In this document: positions 6,884-58,774 of the stretch, one piece after another
Position numbering within the stretch: position 1 is the stretch's first letter
Layout: each line of letters opens with the position of its first letter
Source of the DNA: Desmodesmus armatus
Lineage: Eukaryota; Chlorophyta; Chlorophyceae; Sphaeropleales; Scenedesmaceae
Direction: 5' to 3'
Length of the DNA stretch: 64,000 nt
Assembly: GCA_007449985.2 (NCBI GenBank)
Contig: VIIQ02000899.1
Coordinates: forward strand, 67,001-131,000
Made by a program: the position numbers and the translations under genes
Notes under the pieces: generated by a model
The model's input: the letters and a program-made list of their open reading frames with translations, nothing else
What the model was told of the DNA's origin: nothing
Database searches by the model: none

Positions 6884-7096
6884 TGTAGTTGTAGTCATGA
6901 TTGTTGTGGTTTGCGACATGGTATTGTGCTTGCATACCAGCATGTGTGCCGTACTGAGTGAACTGTCACTCGTAGGCTATGTCATCCGGCTGTAGTTGTA
7001 GTCTTGATTGTTGTGGTTTGCGACATGGTATTGTGCTTGCATACCAGCATGTGTGCCGTACTGAGTGAACTGTCACTCATAGGCTATGTCATTCTG
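6884..7096. repeat. 107-bp tandem duplication
   Basis: Two head-to-tail units start at 6884 and 6991, each beginning TGTAGTTGTAGTC, and are nearly identical throughout. They lie in the probable 3' UTR of the FAS1 gene. Confidence 0.9.
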
Positions 7097-8157: not shown

Positions 8158-11100
8158 TCACAGCACCACAGGTGCTTCGGTGGTGCACGTGGCAAACAGC
8201 AGTGCAGCGCTGACATTAAGCCCAGCAAACAGCAGGCACACGCTGCTGTAGGCCCCTGTTGCCTCCAGCACCATGCCTGTCAGCAGGTTGCCTGCAATGC
8301 CTGCCGCTATGCTGACGCTGTTGGTGATGCCAAACACCACACCTGCGTTGCCCTTGGACACGTCCTGCAGGTAGGAGTGGAACCCTGACGCACTGAAACT
8401 GGGGGTGGGAAAGGGGGGTAAAGGCAGGGTGGAAGGACAGGGCGGGCAGCAGTGAAGCTCAGCTAAGATAGCAAGGCCAAGGTCGAAGTGGAAGCTGTGG
8501 TGGGGAGGGTGGTGGTGGTAGTGGTGGTGGTGGTGGTGGTGGTGGTGGTGGGTGGGGTGCGGGTCAAAGATCTGCCAGCAGGGGGGGTAGGATGACAGCA
8601 GGGAATGGCACCCTTACACACCGCAGCTGTGGGGGGAAGACGAGTGGGGTGCAGGTTGGGGCAGGGGGAAAGCAAGAGCGACCTGCGTTGCCCTTGGACA
8701 CGTCCTGCAGGTAGGAGTGGAACCCCAACACACTGAAACTGGAGGGTGGCCGAGGGGGGGGGGGGGGGGGGCAGCAGCGGAGCTGTTAGCAGGGCCAAAG
8801 AAGCGCTGTGTGTGCTACCTGTGTTGCAGCATGCGCCATCCCCCTCTCACCCACCTGCATCAGCTGCCGCACCGCCAGCTGTCCCATGGTGCCACTTTTG
8901 ATCAAGTTCTTGGCCGCCTGGCCCGCCAGTGGCCCCACAACAGCAGCAGCGATCCAGGGTATGCTGCTGAGGCCCCCTGTGACAGCTATGCCCAGCCCTG
9001 GCCTGAACCACCGCAGGAGGCCAGGAAGGTGGGGATCCAGTTTTGAAGGGGGGCGGGGGCAAAGGAGGGGGGGTCAGCATGTAGGGCTGTGATGTGCAGA
9101 GTGTTGCCAGACATCACGACAGTGACATTAGTGTTTAGGGTTTAGGGTTTAGGGTGGCTACCCAGTTTGAATCATGCGCAACAGTACAAAGCAGTACAAA
9201 GAAGCAGTAGCCCATCACTGCATGGCTACAGCACAACACACCCAACTGGACCAACGTGCTCCACGGCTGCTGCAGCAACCGAGCCAAACCACTGGCACCA
9301 CTCTTACTGCTGCTGCTGCTTTGCTGGCGCCGCCGCACAGCCACGCTCGGCCCCACCCTTACTGTTGCTGCTGATGCTGGGTGCTGTTGCTAGTGTCGCT
9401 GCCCCCCACACAGCCCAGGCCATGCCAGCCAGACCGGTGGCAAAGAATGCACCAGGCAGCCCCACCAGCAGGGCCAGAGGGGGCACAGCTGCTAGACCTA
9501 ACACACCACCTGCAGGCCAACACAGCAGGAAGTGAGGGCAAGTGAATGGGTGTGGGTGTGGGTGGGAGGGGGGGGGGGCAGTGAAGGGGGGGTGGGGGGT
9601 GGTACACATTTGACTCTGACCAGGGTCCTGTCAATATTTGGCTCACCACAATTTCACCACGACCCCCACCGGGTGGCCACACACATACCAGCCAAAGAAA
9701 CACAATTCCCGTGCAGTCAAGACTGTTGCAATAAGTACTGCTGAATGTGGTGCGAGTGTACTGACGCTTGTTGGTAGGAAAGGTTTCGTCCCTCACCGGT
9801 GTTGAATGCCAAGTATGCTCCTGCCACTGCACAGGCCCTCTTTCACATTGGAAGCCCCCCCTGCCCTTGCCACCCGCCCACACGCTGCCCCTTGGCCCCA
9901 TCCTCGGGAAGAGGTGGGAGGGTACTGTTGTTTGCAGGGGGGAGGGTGATGTTGCTGGATGTCCAAAAGATGGCATGACAAGCTTGAGTGGCATCAGACA
10001 ACAGGGCATACCATATGATCACCTCTGCGGTCTGACAGCCACCTATAGTGAAAGCTGAGTATGCTCCTGCCACTGCAGAGGCCCTCTCTGCTGCAGGCAA
10101 CCCCCTAACCCGGGCCACCCACCCACACGCCTTCCCTCGGCCTCCGCCCCCCTTGGCAAGGTGGGAAGGTGTTGCTATTTGGGGAGGGGGGGTAATGTTG
10201 CTGGAATCCATGGCGAGTGTGCAGCAGACGACACGGGATACATTAACGGAGAAAGTACTCATTTGTAGCACCCCTCCCCCCAACACAACACCTCAGCGCT
10301 TTGACACCCACCTATGTTTGATGCTGAGTATGCTCCTGCCACTGCAGAGGCCCTCTCTGCTGCAGGCACGAGCTGAGCTGATGTGGCAGTCACACACAGC
10401 ATCACTGCTGCTGATGCAACACCCATCAGACCACGAGACACCAGCAGCAGCGGCAGCACCCAGCCCGCCGCTGCTGCTGCTGCTGTTGTGCCTGTGGCGA
10501 AGCAGCGTATACCTGTGAGTCATGTTGCTGCTGACCAGAGTAATAGAACAACCACCATCACCCTGCAACACAGCACAGCAGCAACAAAACAGCCAGAGGT
10601 TTCATGGTGCTGCAGCCAATTCTGTCAGGGTAGGTATATATTTTTGCACCTCAACGAAGCTGGTCCGACCTGACATGGCATGCGATTGACAGCCACAGCC
10701 TACTAACACCACTGGAGACTCAAAGAACCCAAGTGAGAGCAAGTGCAGCAAGCCCTGTGCGCAGCATGTCTTCATGCTGGTGTGCATCACAAAGGTGCAT
10801 CCAATGGTGCAGCTGCAACTTTTGTCCCACATGCGCACTCAGTGACTCACCAGGCCCTTGGGGAAACCCCAGGAAGCAGCGTGTTGCTGCCTGCAAACAC
10901 ACGCCAGCAACCTGCAGCTGCGATAACAACCAGCTGACTGAAACACTGTCCTGCTCCGCCCATCTTGTTCCAGAGAGCTGGTCAGCCAGGCGTCCAGCAG
11001 GCAGCTGACCCAGCAGGTACGTGAACAGAGTGGCAGCCTGGCGCAGCATGGCACAGCACAGCATGTCACAGTACAGCATGTCACAGTACAGCATGTCACA

Positions 11101-22210: not shown

Positions 22211-25200
22211 CTAGGCAGCCTTGACCTTTGCTGTAACAGGGGCACTGCTCTTACTCTGGCGGCTGTACGAATAGATCACAAACCCAGCCAACGACACAGC
22301 ATACCCCAGCATGTGACGCCCCGTCACCACATCCCCATGTGTCACAACCCCGTACCACACAACCCCAAGGTTCTTCAGGCACCCTGAAACCTTGAAAGTC
22401 AACGAGCTGGTAGTAGATATCGCAAGGAAGCTCGTGAGGTTGACTAAACTGCTCATAACGCCAGCTTTGATGAAGATCCAGGGGTTGGAGGATAGCACTG
22501 CTTCAAAGGCGGTAAAGAGGCCCTTTTGCCGTTCGAACAAAAGGCTGCCGGTTATGAGGAGGGCTGAGCAAGGGAGGCCCATGTACACCAGGACATCAGC
22601 ACTGTTGTACCTGTAACAACACAACACAACACATACATACACAACACCACTATTAGTGACTGGCAGTAGCACACAAAAGAAGAAACATATGTAGGCATGT
22701 TGAGCCACAGTCGCAGTGGAAGTGGTGTAACTGCTGCAGTTCTCGGTTGCAGACTGCTGCACACAGGAGCCCTCAAAACCCTACTTGAGCACAAAACGGC
22801 CTCAGGACCACTGCGAAAAGACTCACATTACTTGCATGACCTCCGCAGCGGCTGCTGAGCATGACCCTAGCCCACCCTGATAACTCCACCCCCTGATGCC
22901 TGCTCTGCTGGAACCAAGCCTATGATCACGTTATGCACAGGCAGCGCACTCACTTTCACAGCCCCAGCAGCAGCTGGCTGAGCATTACACAACCTCTTCA
23001 ATGACTACAAACCCTCTAATGACTACAAACCCCCAGAACCCAGGTGCAAACTTGCAAGCCCAGTGCTACTCAGCGTGTACTACAAAGTGTAGTGACACAG
23101 TGCATCACAGGCAGTACACTCACTTGTAAGGCCCCAGCAGCAGCTGGCTGAGCACCACACGGCCACCTTCAGTGGTAGCACTGCCCATGAACAGAAGGAT
23201 GCCCGTCAAGTTGTAAGTGGGAGAAGAACTCTCCGCAAGTACCGCACCACTGCAGCAACAACACGGGGGTAGGGAGGGCATGAATGTGTTGTGAGGAGAA
23301 AGCAGGACCAGGAGGGACCAACCAAGTATGCAACTGAGCATGCAACAGATAACAATCTCCGTCAATTTTCCAAGCGCCCATTCTGCTGACCCTCTTGCCA
23401 CTACATCAAACCAGTAGAATCCTCCCCACAGCCGTTAGAATCACCGACAGCACCAGTGCGCCTTCTAACCCCTCCACCTCCGCAGCCAACCCCACATCAG
23501 AGTGGGGGCAGATGTAGCCGCTTTCAAACCGCTGGACAAACCTCCAGGCAGGTACATGTAGAGGAACCACACCGCCCAGACAGCCACCCTCGCCACTCCC
23601 ACCACATCCCCCCCCCCCTAAAGCCATCACTCGCCCTGTGCCAATAGCGATCAGCAGCACCGACAGGACCAGCACCCACGTCGACCGCTCCACCCCCGCC
23701 GCCACCCCCATCGTCACGTATGGGTTCAAATGCATTTCAGTATCTGACAGACGCTCACGACAGATCCTACATGTGTATTTTTGTGTCAACCTGGCGGCAC
23801 ATCCAAGACACCACCCCTCCTTCCACAACCCCTCTCTCACAAAGACAGCACTCACCCTGTGCCAATAGCGATGAGCAGCACCGACAGCACCAGCGCTCCA
23901 GTCAACCGTTCCACTCCCGCCACCACCCCCACCATCAATGTCAAAGCAGGTGTGAAGGCCTTCAATATCTGAATGAAGCTCAGCAAAACGTTACGTATAA
24001 GACTGCCCCCCCCCCCCCCCCCCACGCCGGCACTCACCCTGTTCCAATAGCGATCAGCAGCACCGACAGCACCAGCGCTCCAGTCAACCGCTCCACTCCC
24101 GCCACCAACCCCACCATCAATGTCAAAGCAGGCGTGAAGGCCTTCATTATCTGAATGAAGCTCATTGACAGGTACATGTGGGAGTTCCCCCCCCCCCCCA
24201 GACACCAGCACTCGCCCCCCCCCCCCCACCCCAAGCCGGCACTTACCCTGTTCCGATCGCAATCAGCAGCACCGACAGCACCAGCGCTCCAGTCAACCGT
24301 TCCACTCCAGCTGCCACTCCCACCATCAACGTCAAAGCAGGTGTGAAAGCCTTCAATATCTGAATGAAGCTCATTGACAGGTACATGTAGGGGGCATTGC
24401 CAAGGAACATAGTGCCTGCTGTGCAAGCGGCCAGCGGTAGGACCCGCATGACTTCTCTGTAGGAGGTGGGGGGCCCACGGGAGAGGGGCATGGCACCCAC
24501 AGCATGCAGCAGCAAGCCAGCGCCTGCTGAAAACAACTGCAAGCAGCGGCATTGCAAGGAAGGGAAAAACAACCAAGGCATGAGTGTTGGTGTGAGGGGG
24601 CATTGCCAAGGAACATAGTGCCAGCTGTGCAGGCGGCCAGTGGGAGGACTCGTAGGGCTTCTGTGTGTGAGGTGGGGGCCCCGCGGGAGAGCGGCATGGC
24701 GCCGAGCGCTGAGAGCAACAGGCCGGAGCCTGCTGAAAACAGCTGCAAGACAAAGCAGTATTGCAGGGAAGAGGACAACAAGGTGTGGATTGTTGGTGTG
24801 AGCAGGGGGCAGTGCGAGAGCGGCATGGCAGACAGCCGAAAGCAAGCCAGCACAACAAAAAACAGGTGCAAGGGGAGCATTGCAAAGCAGGTAAACACAG
24901 GTGCGGGAGAGCATTTTGGATTATGAGCAGGTCTGCAGGAGAATAGCAGGGTCCTGACAGCTGAGAGCCGGAGGCCGGCACCGGCAGAAAACAACTGCAG
25001 AAACCAGCAGCTATGCACCAGACGATTGCATGGTTGTGCTGGCACAGAGGATGCCCCTCATCCCAGCCAGATCATCGCACAAGTGTAGCCAACCATGCCT
25101 CTCCAGTCATACTAGTTTACCTGAACGAATCCTGCAAAAGCCCAAGCAAACACGCACTACACTGTAACTGACCATGAATTGGTGAAGTAGCCATGTTTGA

Positions 25201-26460
25201 CAGTAGCCAGCAGTTGTAAGGGACAACAGTAGTCAGCAGTAAAACCTGTGCCGCAACAGAACCCACAGCGGGCGAATGTTGTCCGTTACACCTGCTGGCA
25301 ACACATCTGTGAGTTGACGCAGACAGTTGCATGGACTAAAACACCACCCGCAGAGCAACCAACCCATGGGAAGGACAATCACCTTTGTGAAAGACAATGC
25401 CATTCTGCCGCATCCACAAAGATTGGAAGACGCAGAACGACATTGGCACACTCATAGGAGAATCTCAAACCCATGCACTGATTGCTGTGGGGTGCATGCC
25501 GCATTAAGTTGCTTCAAAATCAAACACCCCCCTCCCTACGTCCCCCCCACACCTTACCATGTCCAGTCCAGTGACCAACATGGGCTAAGGAAAGCCCCCC
25601 CGGCCGCTGCTAAGGGTGGTTGTGTATCAGAGCAGCAACCCAAAAACGAGCCCCCCCTCCCCCTGCCACATGTGCACATTCAGCTCACCATGCCCAGTCC
25701 AGTGACCATCATGGGGTAAGGGAAGCCCTCAAATGAAATTGAGCACAAACGAATGTCAGCTCAACATCACACCCTCCTCCCCCTCCCCCTCCGTCCCTTG
25801 CTACTCAACCCTGACCCCCCGCCCCCACCCCCAGGTCCAACCACCCCCCCCCTGCCACACACACACATACCACCACACCCCCAGGCTCACCATGCCCAGT
25901 CCTGTGACCATCATGGGGTAAGGGAGGCCCCCTTGGTAGAGGCTGTTGTTGATCACAATCAGCGCCGATGACGCAAAACATCCACAGCACTGTGCTCATG
26001 AACTCACCAAATTGCAAGCGACCCCCCCCCCCCCACACACACACAAACACCCCCCCCCCACCCCAACACGTTGTTGTCAAGTACAATCAGCGCAGAGGAC
26101 GCAAACATCCACAACACCGTGCTCATGAACCCAGCAAATGCAGCAAATACAAGCGACCCCCCCTTCCGACCCCCTGCTCACCATGCCCAGTCCAGTAACC
26201 ATCATGGGGTAAGGGAAGCCCCCCTGGTAGAGGCTGTTGTTGATCACAATCAGCGCCGAAGACGCAACCATCCACAACACGGTGCTCATGAACCCAGCAG
26301 CAAGCTGCAGCAGATGCGGGTCATGCTGCTTCTGCTTCTGCTGCTGCTGTGGGGCCTTGCACATCTGCTGCTGCTGCTGCTGCTGCTGCTGGTCCTTGAG
26401 GCTGCTGCCATCAGCTGTGGCAGAGTCTCCTGGTGCCTTGATGATTGCTGCCTTGGACAT
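22211..26460 (-). CDS. triose-phosphate/nucleotide-sugar transporter family protein (DMT/TPT)
   Basis: Members of this family are ten-helix antiporters moving sugar phosphates or nucleotide sugars across plastid or Golgi membranes. Four exons give an unbroken 364-residue frame: 26460-26182, 24536-24247, 23249-23124 and 22610-22211 (phases 0,2,2). Residues 1-60 are Gln-rich and soluble. Exon 1 ends with a helix (LWMVASSALIVINNSLY) and the loop GGFPYPMMVTGLGM. Exon 2 has LFSAGAGLLLHAVGAM, VLPLAACTAGTMFLGNAPY and the family signature LSMSFIQILKAFTPALTLMV. Exon 3 has GILLFMGSATTEGGRVVLSQ, and the last exon the C-terminal helices (NLTSFLAISTTSSLTFKVSG, GYAVSLAGFVIYSYS). The substrate cannot be told. 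All three introns contain extra copies of the adjoining exon edges, listed separately. Confidence 0.87.
22940..22985 (-). repeat. copy of transporter exon-3 tail in intron 3
   Basis: Repeats the last codons of exon 3 plus the donor (compare 23108-23160): the reverse strand reads SQLLLG-like codons in a shifted frame, then an intact GTGAGT. It lies downstream of the real exon in the direction of transcription. Confidence 0.75.
23412..24180 (-). repeat. four copies of transporter exon-2 tail in intron 2
   Basis: Copies lie at about 24037-24180, 23863-23982, 23635-23722 and 23412-23500, in order of growing divergence from the real exon (24247-24390). The first two are open in the exon's frame and read SFIQ(I/M)(M/L)KAFTPALTLMVG through LLIAIGTG; both keep a GTGAGT donor at the same codon. 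The third keeps the exon end but has a GCGAGT donor, and the fourth is degraded. Each is followed by intron sequence resembling the real intron start, including poly-C tracts. Confidence 0.88.
24600..25003 (-). repeat. copies of transporter exon-2 head in intron 1
   Basis: The copy at 24600-24758 carries the acceptor and the first 50 codons (LFSAGSGLLLSALGAMPLSR and VLPLAACTAGTMFLGNAP), open in frame. A short diverged copy lies near 24820-24870 and another at about 24950-25003 (LFSAGAGLRLSAV, with a CTGCAG acceptor). All lie upstream of the real exon 2 in the direction of transcription. Confidence 0.8.
25558..26145 (-). repeat. copies of transporter exon-1 tail in intron 1
   Basis: Near-complete copy at about 25889-26008 (125 bases; one inserted base breaks the frame, donor intact), short copies containing the exon end at 25684-25724 and 25558-25602 (the second with a damaged donor), and an internal piece at 26073-26145. 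Compare the real exon end at 26182-26310. All are on the donor side of intron 1. Confidence 0.85.
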
Positions 26461-27005
26461 GGCGGCTCTGTACTGTTGCTGCTACTGCTGCTGCTGCTGC
26501 TGCTGCTGCTTTAGTGGTGCGAGAGGGGCTCACTCAGGGGAGTTGGCGCCTGCTGCAGTGACTGGTGGGTACAGAAGGTGTATGACAAGATGAATGAAAA
26601 GATGACAGATGCTGCAGGTACAGATCACGAGGGGTTCAGGGCGACTGCTGCTGCTGCTGCTACTGCTGCAGAGGCTGAGCCGATGGTGCTTCAGGAAGGC
26701 TTGGCGTACTGCAGTCACAGCATGCAGCACAGCACAGCACGGCGCAGCACGACACAATGCAGCAGCACAGTCAGGTTTATTGTGTAACAGGGAGGTGATG
26801 AGTTACCCAGATGGTTTGGAGTCAGTTCATCTCTCTTTCACACACACCATACTGTCCTAGTGAGAGCGCATGCACCCCTTCTGCTGAGACACACCACTGC
26901 CAAAGGTGCATGTCACAGCCCAGTCTCCGCGCCCCCACCACCCCCCACCCCTGGCATTATCCCCCACCCCCCACCCCACCCCTGGCATCACACCAGACAG
27001 TTAAT

Positions 27006-27290
27006 ACCTTCTGCAGCACCTAGGCTGCGTCCTTCCGTGCCTTAGCGTGCAGCTGGGCTGCACAAAACCTGCTGCTGCTTCTTTGATTATAAGCCTGGCA
27101 CCACGTGCGCCCCCTTCAAACCCCTGCCCCAAGCACATTTCAGAGACCCCATTCTCAACCCCCACAGAAACCACTCTACCCCCCCCCCCCCACACACACA
27201 CACACAAAATGTGCACATTACCCACCTTCTGTAGCACCCAGGCTGCCTCCTGCCTTGCCTTCGCGTGCAGCTGTGCCACACAAACCATGC
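27006..27290 (-). repeat. two copies of the LYR exon-2 tail
   Basis: The blocks at 27223-27290 and 27006-27062 repeat the end of LYR exon 2 (AQLHAKARQ, then AAWVLQK) with the following bases. The first is open and has GTGGGT after the same codon; the second has an in-frame stop. They lie beyond the exon in the direction of transcription. Confidence 0.85.
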
Positions 27291-27342
27291 TGCTGCTCCA
27301 TTGATTATAAGCCCCCCCCCCCCACACACACACAAAGTGTGT

Positions 27343-27995
27343 CTACACACTGTGCACGTTACCCACCTTCTGCAGTACCCAGGCTGCGTCCTGTCGTGCC
27401 TTAGCGTGCAGCTGTGCTATCACCTCTGGGTCTGACTCAGTGTTCCAGTTGGCAAAGTACTGACGGGTGTAGTTGCGGTAGTACAGCTGGCTCCTCCTGC
27501 AGCAGCAGCAGCAGCAGCAGACATGGGGGCTGATGATAATGGATGTTTCCATGTGACTGGTATATAGGGGTGTGACAGTATGATAGGCATGTTGTCAGCA
27601 ATGTGCTGCGTTTGGGATGCTTGGGAGCAGCAGCAGCAGCACAACGCAGGGAGAATATCCTGTTTCCGCAGCTGGATACTCGTATAAGGTATACAGTAGG
27701 TACGTTGATGGGCTGATGTGTGGCACATCTTACTGGTCAAGTCGAGAGATCAAAATGCGTGGCGCAAGAAAGTCAACGGTCAGGGTGCCCAACCAACTCC
27801 CTGACTTGAAGCAGCACCCCCACCCCCCAGCTGCTGAATTGAAGCGGGCTAGGGCTGGAAGCTGCTCGCCATTAGTGAGAACAGAGACAATACTTACTTG
27901 GGAAGCTGCTTGATTTGCTTCAGGAGCTCCCTGTAAAGCTGTTTTGCAGAACCACCTTCAACTGCAGCACTGCTGAATGCTCTGGAACAGAGCAT
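27343..27995 (-). CDS. LYR-motif protein (mitochondrial Fe-S/complex assembly factor family)
   Basis: LYR proteins are small mitochondrial assembly factors and subunits that bind acyl carrier protein or the Fe-S transfer machinery. Exon 1 (27995-27898) starts with ATG and a short basic presequence (MLCSRAFSSAA), then the LYR triad at residues 20-22 in KQLYRELLKQIKQLPK. It joins in phase 2 to exon 2, which starts at 27496: YYRNYTRQYFANWNTESDP and AKARQDAAWVLQK, the family's conserved Arg/Phe and C-terminal 'WVLxK'. Reading on past 27367 gives seven more residues and a TAG at 27343, total 83 residues, normal for the family. A GTGGGT donor at 27366 leaves open a further exon. The start faces the hslV gene, 1 kb away, also for a mitochondrial protein. 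Which LYR subfamily is not clear. Confidence 0.72.
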
Positions 27996-28671
27996 GAGGC
28001 GTCTGAGTACGCCCGGCTGTCTAATACGAGAAAATACGTACGTGCTGACTCAATTGGACAGTTTGATTCTCCCAGGCAATTGGGGCAGTGGGGCAGAATT
28101 GGGGCGAAAGAACGCCTGGGCACAAGGATCGAGGGTGGCGTGCTTAACGGTTTCGGAAGGCTTACATGAAAGACTTCTAACAGTTGTGAATAGTCCCACC
28201 AGGAAACTTTCAAAGTATCCTGGGGTGTTCTTCATGGGCAGCTGGGGAGAAACTCGACCCATAAAGAAAAAATGGCTGCCCACCGAGCCAGTGATGCACA
28301 GGCCGGTTTTTGCGCAGTTGACGCGCAACTTGCCTGCTTTCGCAGAGCAAGCAATCCCTTTGCAGGGATGCAACTGAAAGTCTTGCAGACAATGCTAAGT
28401 GTACAATGCTGAAAATCTTGCCGGGCACACCGATGGTAAGGCCAAAACTAAAACACCCCCCCCCCCCCCCCCCAACACCCCACCCCCACTCAGCAGAGGG
28501 TCTCCCCTCTGCTGGGGACCTCCAAGCCCCGCGGGGCAGTTCAGCGACATTGTAAACCAATAGGCACTGCTAAACGATCTCACACATCTAGCCCAGGCAC
28601 CACCGGGGATTGGCTGATGGTGCACTGCCACCCCGCCGACACCCCCTGCTGCTGCCACAGCCGCTGCTTAC

Positions 28672-28989: not shown

Positions 28990-31900
28990 ATGGCTGTGCT
29001 GCAGCATGCGCTGTCGGGCTGTCTCAGTCTCAGAAGTGCTGTGTCCTGGCAGGCGCTTCAGGCGACATCTGCTGCTCTGCCAGGTAAGCAGCCCAATGGA
29101 TCCTCGGTCTTAGACCTGAAATGTAGCTGCGGCAGCAGCAACATAATCTGATCATCCCAACCAGCAGATGCTGCCTAGTGTGTATGCGTGTGGGGCACGG
29201 GTTCAGCGGCAGGGCTGAGGTGAAGGGTGGCCGCAACCCCAGCTCCGCAGCCACAGCCACCATCAGCTGCGCCAATGCCAGAATGACCTTTGTGCTCAAC
29301 TACAATCGAAGCCCATCAGTCCATAGCAGCACCCTCAATGCGCTTTATATCTGATTGGGCGTAGTAGTACTAGTAGCTGCAGGAGCAGTTCGCATAGCGC
29401 ATTGCAGCTTACCAATGTGGAACACCAATCCCTTTCCTGCAACACTTGTCTATGACTCGTGTTCAGAATACCTCAGGCAGAATTGCGTCTGAGTTCTCCG
29501 CACCTTGTATCTGACCGCCCCAATGCCCTGAAGTTTCATCGTGTTGTCACCAACCGCTACCACCCCTGCAGGCCTCCTGCAGCAGCAGCAGCTGCAGCAG
29601 CAGCCTGCAGTGCAGGGGACGCCTCAACTTTCGCAAGATCTGCAGCTGCAGCAGCAGCAGCACTATGGTCAACTGCACCACAACCAGCAGCAGCAGCACC
29701 TATGGCAGCAGCAGTTCCCCACAGCTTGGGTGGCACGAAGCCACACTTTCTGCACAAGCAGCAGCACCGCCAGATTCAGCAGTAGCGCAAGCTCCAGCAG
29801 CAGTAGCAGCCATACAGCAGGACACAGCCGCCACAGGAGCCACATCCCTGAAATGCATGGCACCACAGTGCTGTGTGTTCGCAAGGATAACCAGGTGTGT
29901 TAGGGTGGGCTTCGCCGCTTGTCCAGCTTGACAGCTCAAATTCTGGTGTCGTGTTGAGGGTGCATTGCACCCGGTGCCGGGAGTCTGCATAGGACCAGCG
30001 CATCAGGCTGACTTAATCTCAGCTGTAGTGGCAGCGTGCACTGACAGAACTGGCACCCATGCAACCACATTGCATAGGCTCCTTGAGCACTGTTGAATGT
30101 GCGGCGCTGTGCTGGCTGCTGTTGAACTAATGGCAGCATGCGCATACACATGTTAACTCGGCATGACGTCAACATTGCCTGCGCTGAATCATGCCGCTGT
30201 GCTCTGCTGCTGCCTCCGCAGATTGTGTTGATTGCTGACGGCCAGATCACAGCGGGACCCAAGGTTGTGAAGCCCAATGCACGCAAGTTGAGGCGGTTGG
30301 CAACAGAACCGCAACCCAGCTTGGGCGGCTTTGCAGGTGGGTGGATCCGGGCCCAGCTTTGCAAAGCAGCACCGCACTGTACGGCACCTTTCCTGCTGCC
30401 TTCCTGCATGTGCACAGCCCAGGAAAGAGGATTGCTTCACACAGCTACAGTGCATTCACGCTGGGCTAGAGTGTGTTGTGGTGACAGATAGGAATCAAGA
30501 CGTTGCTGCGAATGCATCGAGTGTGCAAAGACCGTTGGCAACACGATCCTATCCTTAGCATCACTTGACGCTTTATGGTTACTGGCAGTACAGACCTTGA
30601 CAGCTGACCCCTGCCGCATGCCTTGCCTGCTGCTTTGTTGCTTGTTTCCAGCGCCAGTCAAGTCGGCTGTTGTCAAGTAAATCCTGCCCGTCCCCCTCCC
30701 TTGCCGGCTTGTGTGCATGTGTGCACCTGTCCCTCACATCCAAGTGTTAAAAATCTTGTTGCACGTGTCCGCCCTGTGCAGGCAGCACTGCTGATGGTCT
30801 GACGCTGTTTGAGCGGCTAGAGCAGCGGCTGGAGGAGCACCCTGGACAGCTGAGGCGTGCTGCTGTGGAGCTGGCTAAAGCATGGAGGCAGGACAGAGTG
30901 CTGAGGCACTTGGAGGTGAGGGGACTGGTTCAACCAGTGGTCATGCGTAGCCTACGTAGATAGTTCCTGGGAGGCCCCATGGTACAAGATGTAGGGGTAA
31001 ACTGTGGAGCTGGCAAAGGCATGGAAGCAGGACAGAGTGCTGATGCTTTGGGAAGTGAGGGGACCTCAGGTTACTGGCCATGTCGAGCATCAGTACCAGT
31101 ACAGTACTAGCGCCAGCACCAGCACTGTGTAGCAGGTGGCGATCGATTCAGAGTGCAGCAACATCTGCTAATGGGCGTAGTAGAGGTGTCTGGGAGAGAC
31201 AAATGTGCAGGTTTGTAGGGCTGGCAACAGCTTCAAGGCGGATTACATGCTTGAGACAGGTGCTGAGACAGGTGTAACATCATCCTGCATGCCGTTTGTG
31301 CGCAGGCTGTCATGATCATTGCTGATGCCACCTGCCTACAGCCATCTAGAGTCTACGAGCTCTAACATGATTATGCCTGCACTTCTGCGCAGGCTGTGAT
31401 GATCATTGCTGATGCCACCACCTGCCTGGAGGTCAGCGGCAAAGGGGAGCTGCTGGAGCCAGCAGACGGAGTACATGCCATCGGCTCAGGCTCACGCTTT
31501 GCCGTCGCTGCTGCTCGGGCGTTGATGGGCACGGCGCTGCCGCCGTTGGAGATTGCGCAGCGGGCGATGGCTATCAGTGCTGCACGCTGCGTCTACACCA
31601 ACAGGTGTGTATGAAGGGTGGCTGTGTTGTGAGGGATGGACTTGGAGGAATGGCGGGAGCGAGTGGATGAGGGCACGAGTGTGTGTTGGCTCAGGGGCCT
31701 GCTTTGCCGCTGCGCTGGGCAGTGAGCAGCCTAAGGACCGGGCGGGGTTGGCAGTGACCAGCCACCAGACCGGGTGCCAATGGCCAATCTGGCACTTGGG
31801 GTATGCTGCTGTGCTTGATCTGCTGTTGACAGGTGCACAGCTGATGTTGCCTGCTTGGCTCGCACAAACGATCGACATTTCCGTCCAGTGTTACACGTGC

Positions 31901-57015: not shown

Positions 57016-58774
57016 ATGGAAACCTTGGCAGCGTTGAGCGGGGCTTTGGACGACTGCTTCGATGGTGGTTCTGCTGATCTGCATGACGGGTGAGGGCAAA
57101 GCACACATAGGCTTGCACACGTCTGCACTCTGTGTCGCTGGACTGCACCAAGGGGTCGCACGCTGCTCACCTCTTATCTGTCTTATTCCCTTGTGCATGT
57201 GCAGGACGGAGAACAAGAATATCTTCCCCTTGCTGCAGCTGCCTGAGCCGTGCCTGCTTCAAGTGCTGCGCTGCTGTGCTGACGATCCTCGCAGCATGGC
57301 CAGCGCTGCTCGGGCCCACAGCAGGCTGCACCAAGCAGCTGTGCTGACAACCAGCACGATCAAGGCTGTACTGAAGCAGCCGCAGCATTGGGACAGCGTT
57401 CTGCTGTACCTCAGCAGACATGGCCAGCATGTACGCGGCCTTGAGCTGGCCGATCAGTACCGATCTGGTGATGTTAGCGACCCTGCTGACCTTGACATGA
57501 CCGACATGGACAAAGGCGAACCTTGCATCGTGCGGCAGCTGTCTGGCGACCTGCAGGGGCTGTTAACCCTGAAGTTCACTGGGCTGCGGGTGCAGCTGCA
57601 GCCTGGGGTGGGGTTCCCAGGCGTGGTGACAGCTGAAATGCCACTCGAGCACCTGGAACTCCGCAACTGCACACTGCTTGATGGGGAGCAGGGGGTGGCA
57701 GCAGCACTGTTGCTGCTGCCTGAGCTGCAGTGCCTGAGGTTCGTTTGCAACAAGCCCGGCTTTTTTGCCGCGTGCTCCCTCCCAGCAGGCACCCTGCAGA
57801 CCTTGCCGCAGCTGACATATCTGGAGTTGTCAGTCCTCCAGGTTTACCCTGACAGCTTGCTGCAGCTGCAGGGCCTGACAGACCTGAAGGATCTGCGCCT
57901 CTGCAGCACAGCACCCTACACCATCACTGCTGGCCTTCTGTCAGACATGCAGCAGCTGACGCGCCTGGAGGTGGCCAGTTCAAGCCCCGATGTGCGTGAG
58001 CCAAGCACCTTCGAGCCAGGCGCCTTGGCTGGCCACGTCCAGCTGCAGCGCCTGGAGCTGTGGTACTGCAGCATAGCCGGCGGCCCAGCAGGGACTGCAC
58101 AGCTGCTGTTCCACATGCCGCAGCTCCAGCAGCTGACTTACCTGGACCTCAGGTGCAACATGCTTGTCGACAAGTCAGGCCCTCCCGCAGCAGCCTACTC
58201 AGCACTGACTGCCAGCAGCAAGCTGTGGCACTTTGGGGTCTGCTGGTGCACGCTGCCAGCATCAGTGTGGCAGCACGTGTTCCCAGACGACAGGCAGCTG
58301 CCGCACCTAGAGTCACTGGCATTTGCGGATGTCAAACAGCTGCAGCCCATGCCAGGTGCCGACCTCACGCCCATGCCCGTGCCAGATGGAGATCGCCTCG
58401 TCCACTGCTGCCCTGGACTGCGGTCCTTTCAGGTGCCAGGTTTGTCCTACACTGCAGCGTCGCTGGCCCCACTGACAGCACTGGCTGACCTTGAAGAGGT
58501 GAACCTTTGGGCTGCCAGCAACAGCTCATCTGATGGACGGGACTTGGTGGTGCAGTTGACTGCGCTGCGGTCACTGTCTTTTGTGCAGTCTGGCAGCGAG
58601 GGCATGCTGCTGCTGCAGCTCACACAGCTGAAACAGCTGACACACCTGGACTTCACACGCCGCGTGGCAGCGCCGCCTGCCGCCCCTGGGTTCTTTGACT
58701 GGGGTGGAGGTGGCACTGAGCGCTTCAGCAAGAAGTCATACAAAGAGGAAGGTCCAAATTGTTCAGCTGCTTAG
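57016..58774 (+). CDS. F-box-like protein with leucine-rich repeats
   Basis: Two exons, 57016-57089 and 57205-58774, joined phase 2, code 547 residues. After a short acidic start (METLAALSGALDDCFDG) comes an F-box-like helix set: FPLLQLPEPCLLQVLRCCAD, DPRSMASAARAHSRLHQAA. The rest is irregular leucine-rich repeats with the LxxLxLxxC/N spacing: LTLKFTGLRVQL, LEHLELRNCTLLDG, LTYLELSVLQVYP, LKDLRLCSTAPY, LQRLELWYCSIAGG, LTYLDLRCNMLVD, LEEVNLWAASN. Such proteins usually serve as substrate adaptors of SCF ubiquitin ligases; the target is unknown. The ATG at 57016 is chosen because its exon ends in the right phase at a GTGAGG donor. The 3' end could instead splice before 58774 to the exon at 59209. 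Confidence 0.75.

Follow-up and report, generated by a model that had tools for sequence, protein, structure and literature searches.

Why should the introns of a gene contain partial copies of that gene's own exons? The question is raised by a TPT-family transporter gene (PF03151) of the green alga Desmodesmus armatus, which lies on the minus strand, at 26460-22211, of a 64,000-nt stretch of contig VIIQ02000899.1 (positions 67,001 to 131,000, assembly GCA_007449985.2; contig C829 in internal numbering), hereafter the window. Discussions of how introns lengthen usually turn on transposons. The exon pieces found in these introns are very probably relics of local tandem duplications that straddled exon-intron junctions and lengthened the introns. 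The gene itself has four exons and an unbroken frame of 1095 nt encoding 364 aa, all three of its introns are GT-AG, and residues 60-346 of the protein match the Pfam TPT profile (E = 1e-19). An alignment with nine algal homologues spans all three exon junctions. Among the 23 homologues listed, the closest are 60% identical, the two named ones belonging to Scenedesmus sp. NREL 46B-D3 and Tetradesmus obliquus, and the more distant ones come from other green algae.

Comparison of the four exons with the gene's own three introns on both strands, using BLASTN, yielded 11 partial exon copies, all in the sense orientation, and no antisense match (Table 1). Four of these derive from exon 1, four from the tail and two from the head of exon 2, and one from the tail of exon 3, in agreement with the approximately eleven copies counted in a preliminary description of the locus. 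The similarity exceeds chance: dinucleotide-shuffled introns produced four weak sense matches in 200 rounds, the best scoring 31.1 bits, and ten of the 11 copies score at least 42.5 bits. The eleventh, h2, falls within the chance level, so that of the two or three exon 2 head copies initially proposed only h1 is secure. Similarly, the four exon 1 copies had been described as tails that keep their donor, which is true of a1, a2 and a3 and not of a0. When the focal region was searched against the whole genome (115.8 Mb, 831 contigs; very common words skipped), only nine short matches of 33-68 nt were listed elsewhere, falling on two stretches of the region.

The same pattern was found in other genes of the genome. 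Outside the focal locus, we sampled exon pieces from those parts of the assembly that match the profiles of the TPT, tRNA-synthetase (PF00133) and kinesin (PF00225) families; of the 183 matches listed (32, 30 and 121, respectively), 120 lying in available sequence were entered and four dropped for having at least two stops, leaving 116 pieces. Three further pieces added later, none with copies, brought the total to 119; edge, series and polarity counts rest on the 116, polarity counts including the focal gene as well. Each piece was compared with its flanking sequence, 1 kb at most per side (171,690 distinct bases in all), at a threshold of 36 bits. Sense copies occurred in the flanks of 14/119 pieces (14/116 before the addition), no antisense copy was present in the flanks of the 116 pieces, and dinucleotide-shuffled flanks gave no match in 2320 exon-rounds. 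An earlier swap control, in which 15/348 exon-trials matched, was unusable because its flanks contained paralogue exons, and was replaced by the shuffled flanks and by flanks of unrelated families.

The position of the copies relative to the parent exon was constrained. In nearly all cases (23/24) the copy reached the matching exon edge to within 5 nt, as compared with 1.29 expected under random placement, and a simulation of a million random placements never gave more than nine edge-touching copies. None of the 24 touched the opposite edge, and no exon-internal duplication was detected in the 116 pieces. One of the 24 (C74:189016) consists of 24 nt repeated exactly, immediately beside its exon piece, and may be coding; low-complexity masking revealed an additional donor-side copy (C4:566531), which is not among the 14 and is counted in the nine copy-bearing introns considered below. 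Both in the focal introns and in the flanks of the 116 pieces, the copies are direct, lie in the same gene and adjoin their parent exon. A tandem duplication that crosses a junction is expected to leave just such copies, nearby, direct and bound to one edge, as long as splicing continues at the site directly joined to the exon.

The preliminary description had considered a gene with graded series at several junctions to be unusual. Since the same rule operates in other genes of the genome and at four further places in the window, the transporter gene is better described as extreme than as special: copies accompany 4/6 of its junctions versus 17/232 in the sample (p = 4e-4, a post-hoc comparison), the latter being a rough rate because the hidden Markov model pieces are not full exons and some of their ends are perhaps not junctions. 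Families differed, with kinesin exons nearly free of copies (1/64, versus 13/52 for tRNA-synthetase and TPT exons together; p = 1e-4, noticed after the fact). Kinesin introns are also shorter (median 273 nt, versus 418 and 490 nt) and contain hardly any long runs of G or C.

If the duplicated unit crossed the junction, the intron sequence next to each copy should resemble that next to the real exon edge. Such similarity was present, at an uncorrected p <= 0.05, in 17/25 comparisons (9/16 in the sample and 8/9 in the focal gene). In the focal gene, for example, c1 remains similar for about 30 nt beyond the donor, t1 likewise extends past its donor, and the 58 intron nucleotides preceding the acceptor of h1 resemble the real exon 2 flank (p = 0.003). 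The homology was about as long as the shift between copy and exon, or longer, in three downstream cases (C427, 136 nt for a shift of 138; C797, 184 for 154; C728:145806, 210 for 142), and shorter than the shift in the remaining cases compared. On the exon side, unit ends cluster within exon 2: h1 ends at nt 148 of the exon, and c1, c3 and c4 begin at nt 146, 149 and 144, with c2 at nt 164. The first four thus fall within six nucleotides, at 24388-24393 of the window (exon 2 nt 144-149); a TGCCCCCT tract adjoins these breakpoints and is found again at the opposite end of the head unit. Taken together with the edge rule and the sense-only orientation, these comparisons support well the earlier proposal of serial tandem duplication spanning splice junctions, and "intron-growth unit" is a fair name for the duplicated junction.

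An alternative is that short junction patches were copied into the intron as templated insertions during break repair, without tandem duplication of a full unit. Some copies do end no more than about 10 nt intron-ward of the splice site despite at least 90% identity in the exon part (C812 on both sides, C434:13908 and C427 upstream), as a short patch might. Random patches, however, should also include exon interiors, opposite edges and antisense pieces, which is at odds with the edge rule described above, and several of the units are plain tandem repeats running through the junction. We therefore regard templated insertion as unlikely.

Following their formation, the copies appear to have decayed and the real exons to have been preserved. 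At the seven junctions with two or more copies, where the polarity of a change could be assigned, changes unique to a copy were spread over the three codon positions (30/22/38; p = 0.12 for evenness), whereas those unique to the real exon fell almost exclusively on the third (1/0/14; p = 2e-6 versus one third). The real exon is thus constrained and the copies are without clear codon constraint. Moreover, 11 of 34 copies contain stops, and in 12 of the 34 the gap letters do not sum to a multiple of three.

Several copies nevertheless carry intact spare splice sites, which the preliminary description took to be usable and possibly competing. In the focal gene, intact sites are present in a1, a2, a3, c1 and c2 (donors) and in h1 (acceptor), and a2, h1, c1 and c2 are both stop-free and in possession of their sites, at least three such copies having been proposed; the positions assigned earlier to these sites were off by 1 to 16 nt, the donors in question beginning at 24037, 23855 and 25890 and the exon side of the acceptor copy lying at 24742. 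Productive use is another matter. Six isoforms built in silico from the five donors and the acceptor were all truncated by an early stop, at 127, 190 or 216 aa instead of 364, and productive competing splicing is, as far as the sequence can tell, not supported. Early stops would be the very outcome desired if the copies served as functional decoy sites, tuning expression through alternative splicing and nonsense-mediated decay, and the six intact sites would fit such a role. But early stops are also the outcome of random duplication, unrelated genes harbor comparable copies, the GT donor is missing from c3 and c4, and the stops, frame-breaking gaps and changes on all codon positions of the copies speak of decay; a decoy function thus seems quite improbable. 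Neutral relics are the best interpretation of the copies, and the transporter gene is an extreme case of a pattern shared by other genes of the genome.

The remaining explanations fare worse. Exon 2 has head copies on one side and tail copies on the other, as might be seen if whole exons, formerly mutually exclusive, had been duplicated and had decayed; yet no match extends over an entire exon piece, copies of heads are confined to the upstream side and those of tails to the downstream side, and the copies are partial, confined to one edge and without the clear codon constraint of mutually exclusive exons, making such an origin very improbable. An assembly artefact, which the long error-prone C runs of the introns (about 18 consecutive C from 24006 on) might invite, is scarcely credible, since the focal copies differ from the exon by about 2-38% and also differ among themselves, their changes are polarized as selection predicts, and the pattern recurs on several contigs.

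Copies also occurred in series. In the sample, five junctions carried at least two copies, versus 1.16 expected (Poisson, 24 copies over 232 junctions). The preliminary description stated that copies nearer the real exon are less diverged, and this is roughly so for the exon 2 tail (90, 91, 73 and 68% identity from near to far) and not so for exon 1 (84, 91, 97.5 and 87%). Among the sampled series, identities from near to far were 92 and 84% (C427 upstream), 95 and 86% (C812 downstream), 95 and 93% (C728:145806), 89, 80 and 83% (C18:728105), and 88, 88 and 91% (C427 downstream). Three series are hence clearly graded by distance, two are roughly so and two are not graded.

Introns with copies were longer than those without. 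Among the 73 intervals that separate successive exon pieces, the nine with copies measured 418-1022 nt, and the median of the other 64 was 312 nt (p = 0.004). The difference is in keeping with the addition of one unit at each event, but a longer intron also presents a larger target. Duplications spanned a junction in eight of the 73 introns and were exclusively intron-internal in two; we claim no excess of the former, because exon edges remain recognizable for longer. Runs of at least eight G or C were present in 4/9 copy-bearing introns and in 10/64 others, a weak link (p = 0.06) that the TPT sample argues against, copies being found there in 4/13 introns although this sample has one intron with a G run of at least 8 and none with a C run of that length. 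Runs of at least 8 occur mostly in tRNA-synthetase genes. G runs of at least 6 concentrate in the first fifth of introns (16/31) and C runs in the last fifth (12/24; p = 9e-5 and 1e-3, respectively), so distributed that the two intron ends could pair through them.

We propose the following course of events. A tandem duplication of about 100-340 bp would span an exon-intron junction, and splicing would continue at the site still joined to the body of the exon. The second exon edge, together with a donor or acceptor no longer needed, would end inside the intron and decay there unconstrained as the real exon stayed conserved. The duplicated unit would now be a tandem repeat, and the same junction would be re-duplicated more often than chance, giving copies of differing ages; every event would add about one unit to the length of the intron. 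Replication slippage, template switching or unequal exchange may have produced the duplications, with some breakpoints located in runs of C or G; splicing presumably takes place at the present sites, and the order of events would be as outlined here.

Several observations sit uneasily with this scheme. The intron part was not detectably similar in 8/25 comparisons, in six of which the exon parts are 87-96% identical; three of the eight (C18:727568, C434:13908 and C812 upstream) are similar over the 40 nt next to the junction at p <= 0.05. Fast-changing G and C runs may have blurred some intron parts, an account that suits C18:727568 and C812 upstream poorly. Flanks of unrelated families gave 25 matches in 2320 trials (about 1%), the eight listed stemming from two exons. 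The exon 1 and C427 downstream series are ungraded in identity. Finally, unpolarized differences between exon and copy (62/48/183 over the 34 copies) show a third-position excess beyond that of a neutral copy paired with a constrained exon, and the real lineage has undergone more third-position changes than its nearest copies gathered over the same time, a surplus that a single neutral clock fails to predict. Unequal exchange between diverged alleles could explain both this surplus and the unrecognizable intron parts.

Beyond the transporter gene, we identified copies at four further loci of the window, judged by eye from alignments (Table 1). One of these is a LYR-family gene (26460-28050) directly upstream of the transporter gene and on the same strand; LYR and TPT domains occur together in one predicted protein of another alga (P0001), so that this gene order seems to be kept. 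Other repeats in the window include a 107-bp tandem duplication at 6884-7092, with two copies, 98% matches and an apparently recent origin, and a local direct repeat at 58088-58655 (72%, shift 505). CTG/CAG runs are numerous; the one at 26324-26510 encodes the glutamine-rich N-terminal part of the transporter.

Table 1. Exons of the transporter gene, exon copies in its introns, and copies at other loci of the window (exon nt are counted from the 5' end of each exon).
Feature	Position	Strand	Description	Basis
TPT exon 1	26182..26460	-	start codon to donor, boundary CATG/GTGAGC	gene model, Pfam, homologue alignment
TPT exon 2	24247..24536	-		gene model, homologue alignment
TPT exon 3	23124..23249	-		gene model, homologue alignment
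TPT exon 4	22211..22610	-	ends at stop codon	gene model, homologue alignment
a0	26072..26148	-	exon 1 nt 146-226; without tail, without donor	BLASTN, 84%
a1	25891..26009	-	exon 1 nt 162-279; donor GTGAGC retained	BLASTN and alignment, 91%
a2	25689..25728	-	exon 1 nt 240-279; donor GTGAGC retained; exon frame stop-free	BLASTN, 97.5%
a3	25558..25603	-	exon 1 nt 234-279; donor GTAAGG; internal stop	BLASTN, 87%
h2 (possible old copy)	24938..24994	-	exon 2 head nt 1-57; chance level	BLASTN, 67%, 29.7 bits
h1	24595..24741	-	exon 2 head nt 2-148; acceptor TTGCAG retained; exon frame stop-free	BLASTN and alignment, 82%
c1	24038..24182	-	exon 2 tail nt 146-290; donor GTGAGT retained; exon frame stop-free	BLASTN and alignment, 90%
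c2	23856..23982	-	exon 2 tail nt 164-290; donor GTGAGT retained; exon frame stop-free	BLASTN and alignment, 91%
c3	23635..23774	-	exon 2 tail nt 149-290; donor GCGAGT; internal stops	BLASTN and alignment, 73%
c4	23437..23564	-	exon 2 tail nt 144-272; donor lost	BLASTN and alignment, 68%
t1	22961..23003	-	exon 3 nt 76-119; similarity extends through donor (AAGTGAGTG)	BLASTN and alignment, 84%
LYR-family gene, first intronic exon-tail copy	27180..27276	-	donor-like AAG/GTGGGTAA; real tail within 27312-27417 and beyond	alignment
LYR-family gene, second copy of the same tail	26956..27059	-		alignment
Exon-head copy with acceptor	8681..8792	-	upstream of presumed real head 8341-8452; no Pfam match for the piece	alignment
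MFS-like gene (PF07690, below cut-off), exon-tail copy	9785..9841	-	another copy at about 10040-10100; presumed real tail about 10300-10356	alignment
Copy of 30863-30925	31002..31064	+	donor-like site GTGAGG; gene without assigned family	alignment

The underlying event is of a known kind. Internal (intragenic) gene duplication, often touching introns, was reportedly found to be frequent by Gao and Lynch (PNAS, 2009), and the feature shared with the algal copies is that part of a gene is duplicated in tandem within that gene. What differs here is that an existing intron grows through repeated use of a junction, a single junction of the focal gene having as many as four copies, and no intron is gained or protein altered. 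It is this serial use of the same junctions, together with its frequency, that we consider the interesting part; among titles and abstract openings, we found no report of exon-edge relics inside introns.

Three systems from the literature invite comparison. In the potato RdRp gene, a duplication crossed an intron-exon boundary and gave rise to a new intron by way of a cryptic donor (PMC4974935); the unit is of a similar kind, the 3' part of an intron plus the head of the next exon, but in the alga an existing intron absorbs it and the coding sequence is unchanged. The Rogers model derives intron gain from tandem duplication of an exon segment bearing AGGT (PMC3443670, PMC4974935). Direct tandem duplication provides the spare splice sites in that model too, whereas the algal unit already holds a real junction, and its copies lie inside introns whose own sites belong to the unit. 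Introners, a mutational source of intron sequence reported for green algae among others (PMC9860276), differ in being dispersed elements; the algal copies match the neighboring exon of their own gene.

A broader possibility, which we put forward tentatively and hold to be somewhat doubtful, is that recurrent junction-crossing tandem duplication is a main and self-reinforcing route of intron growth in this lineage. Introns would then carry dated strata of dead exon edges, usable as a clock of their growth, and tRNA synthetases and TPT transporters would be far more prone to it than kinesins. In any such gene, the conserved exon constitutes a built-in reference by which duplicated sequence in the adjoining intron can be recognized and dated. 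A single genome thereby records intron growth, neutral decay and the repeated use of the same sites, and provides numerous natural experiments on the choice that the spliceosome makes among several nearly identical splice sites.

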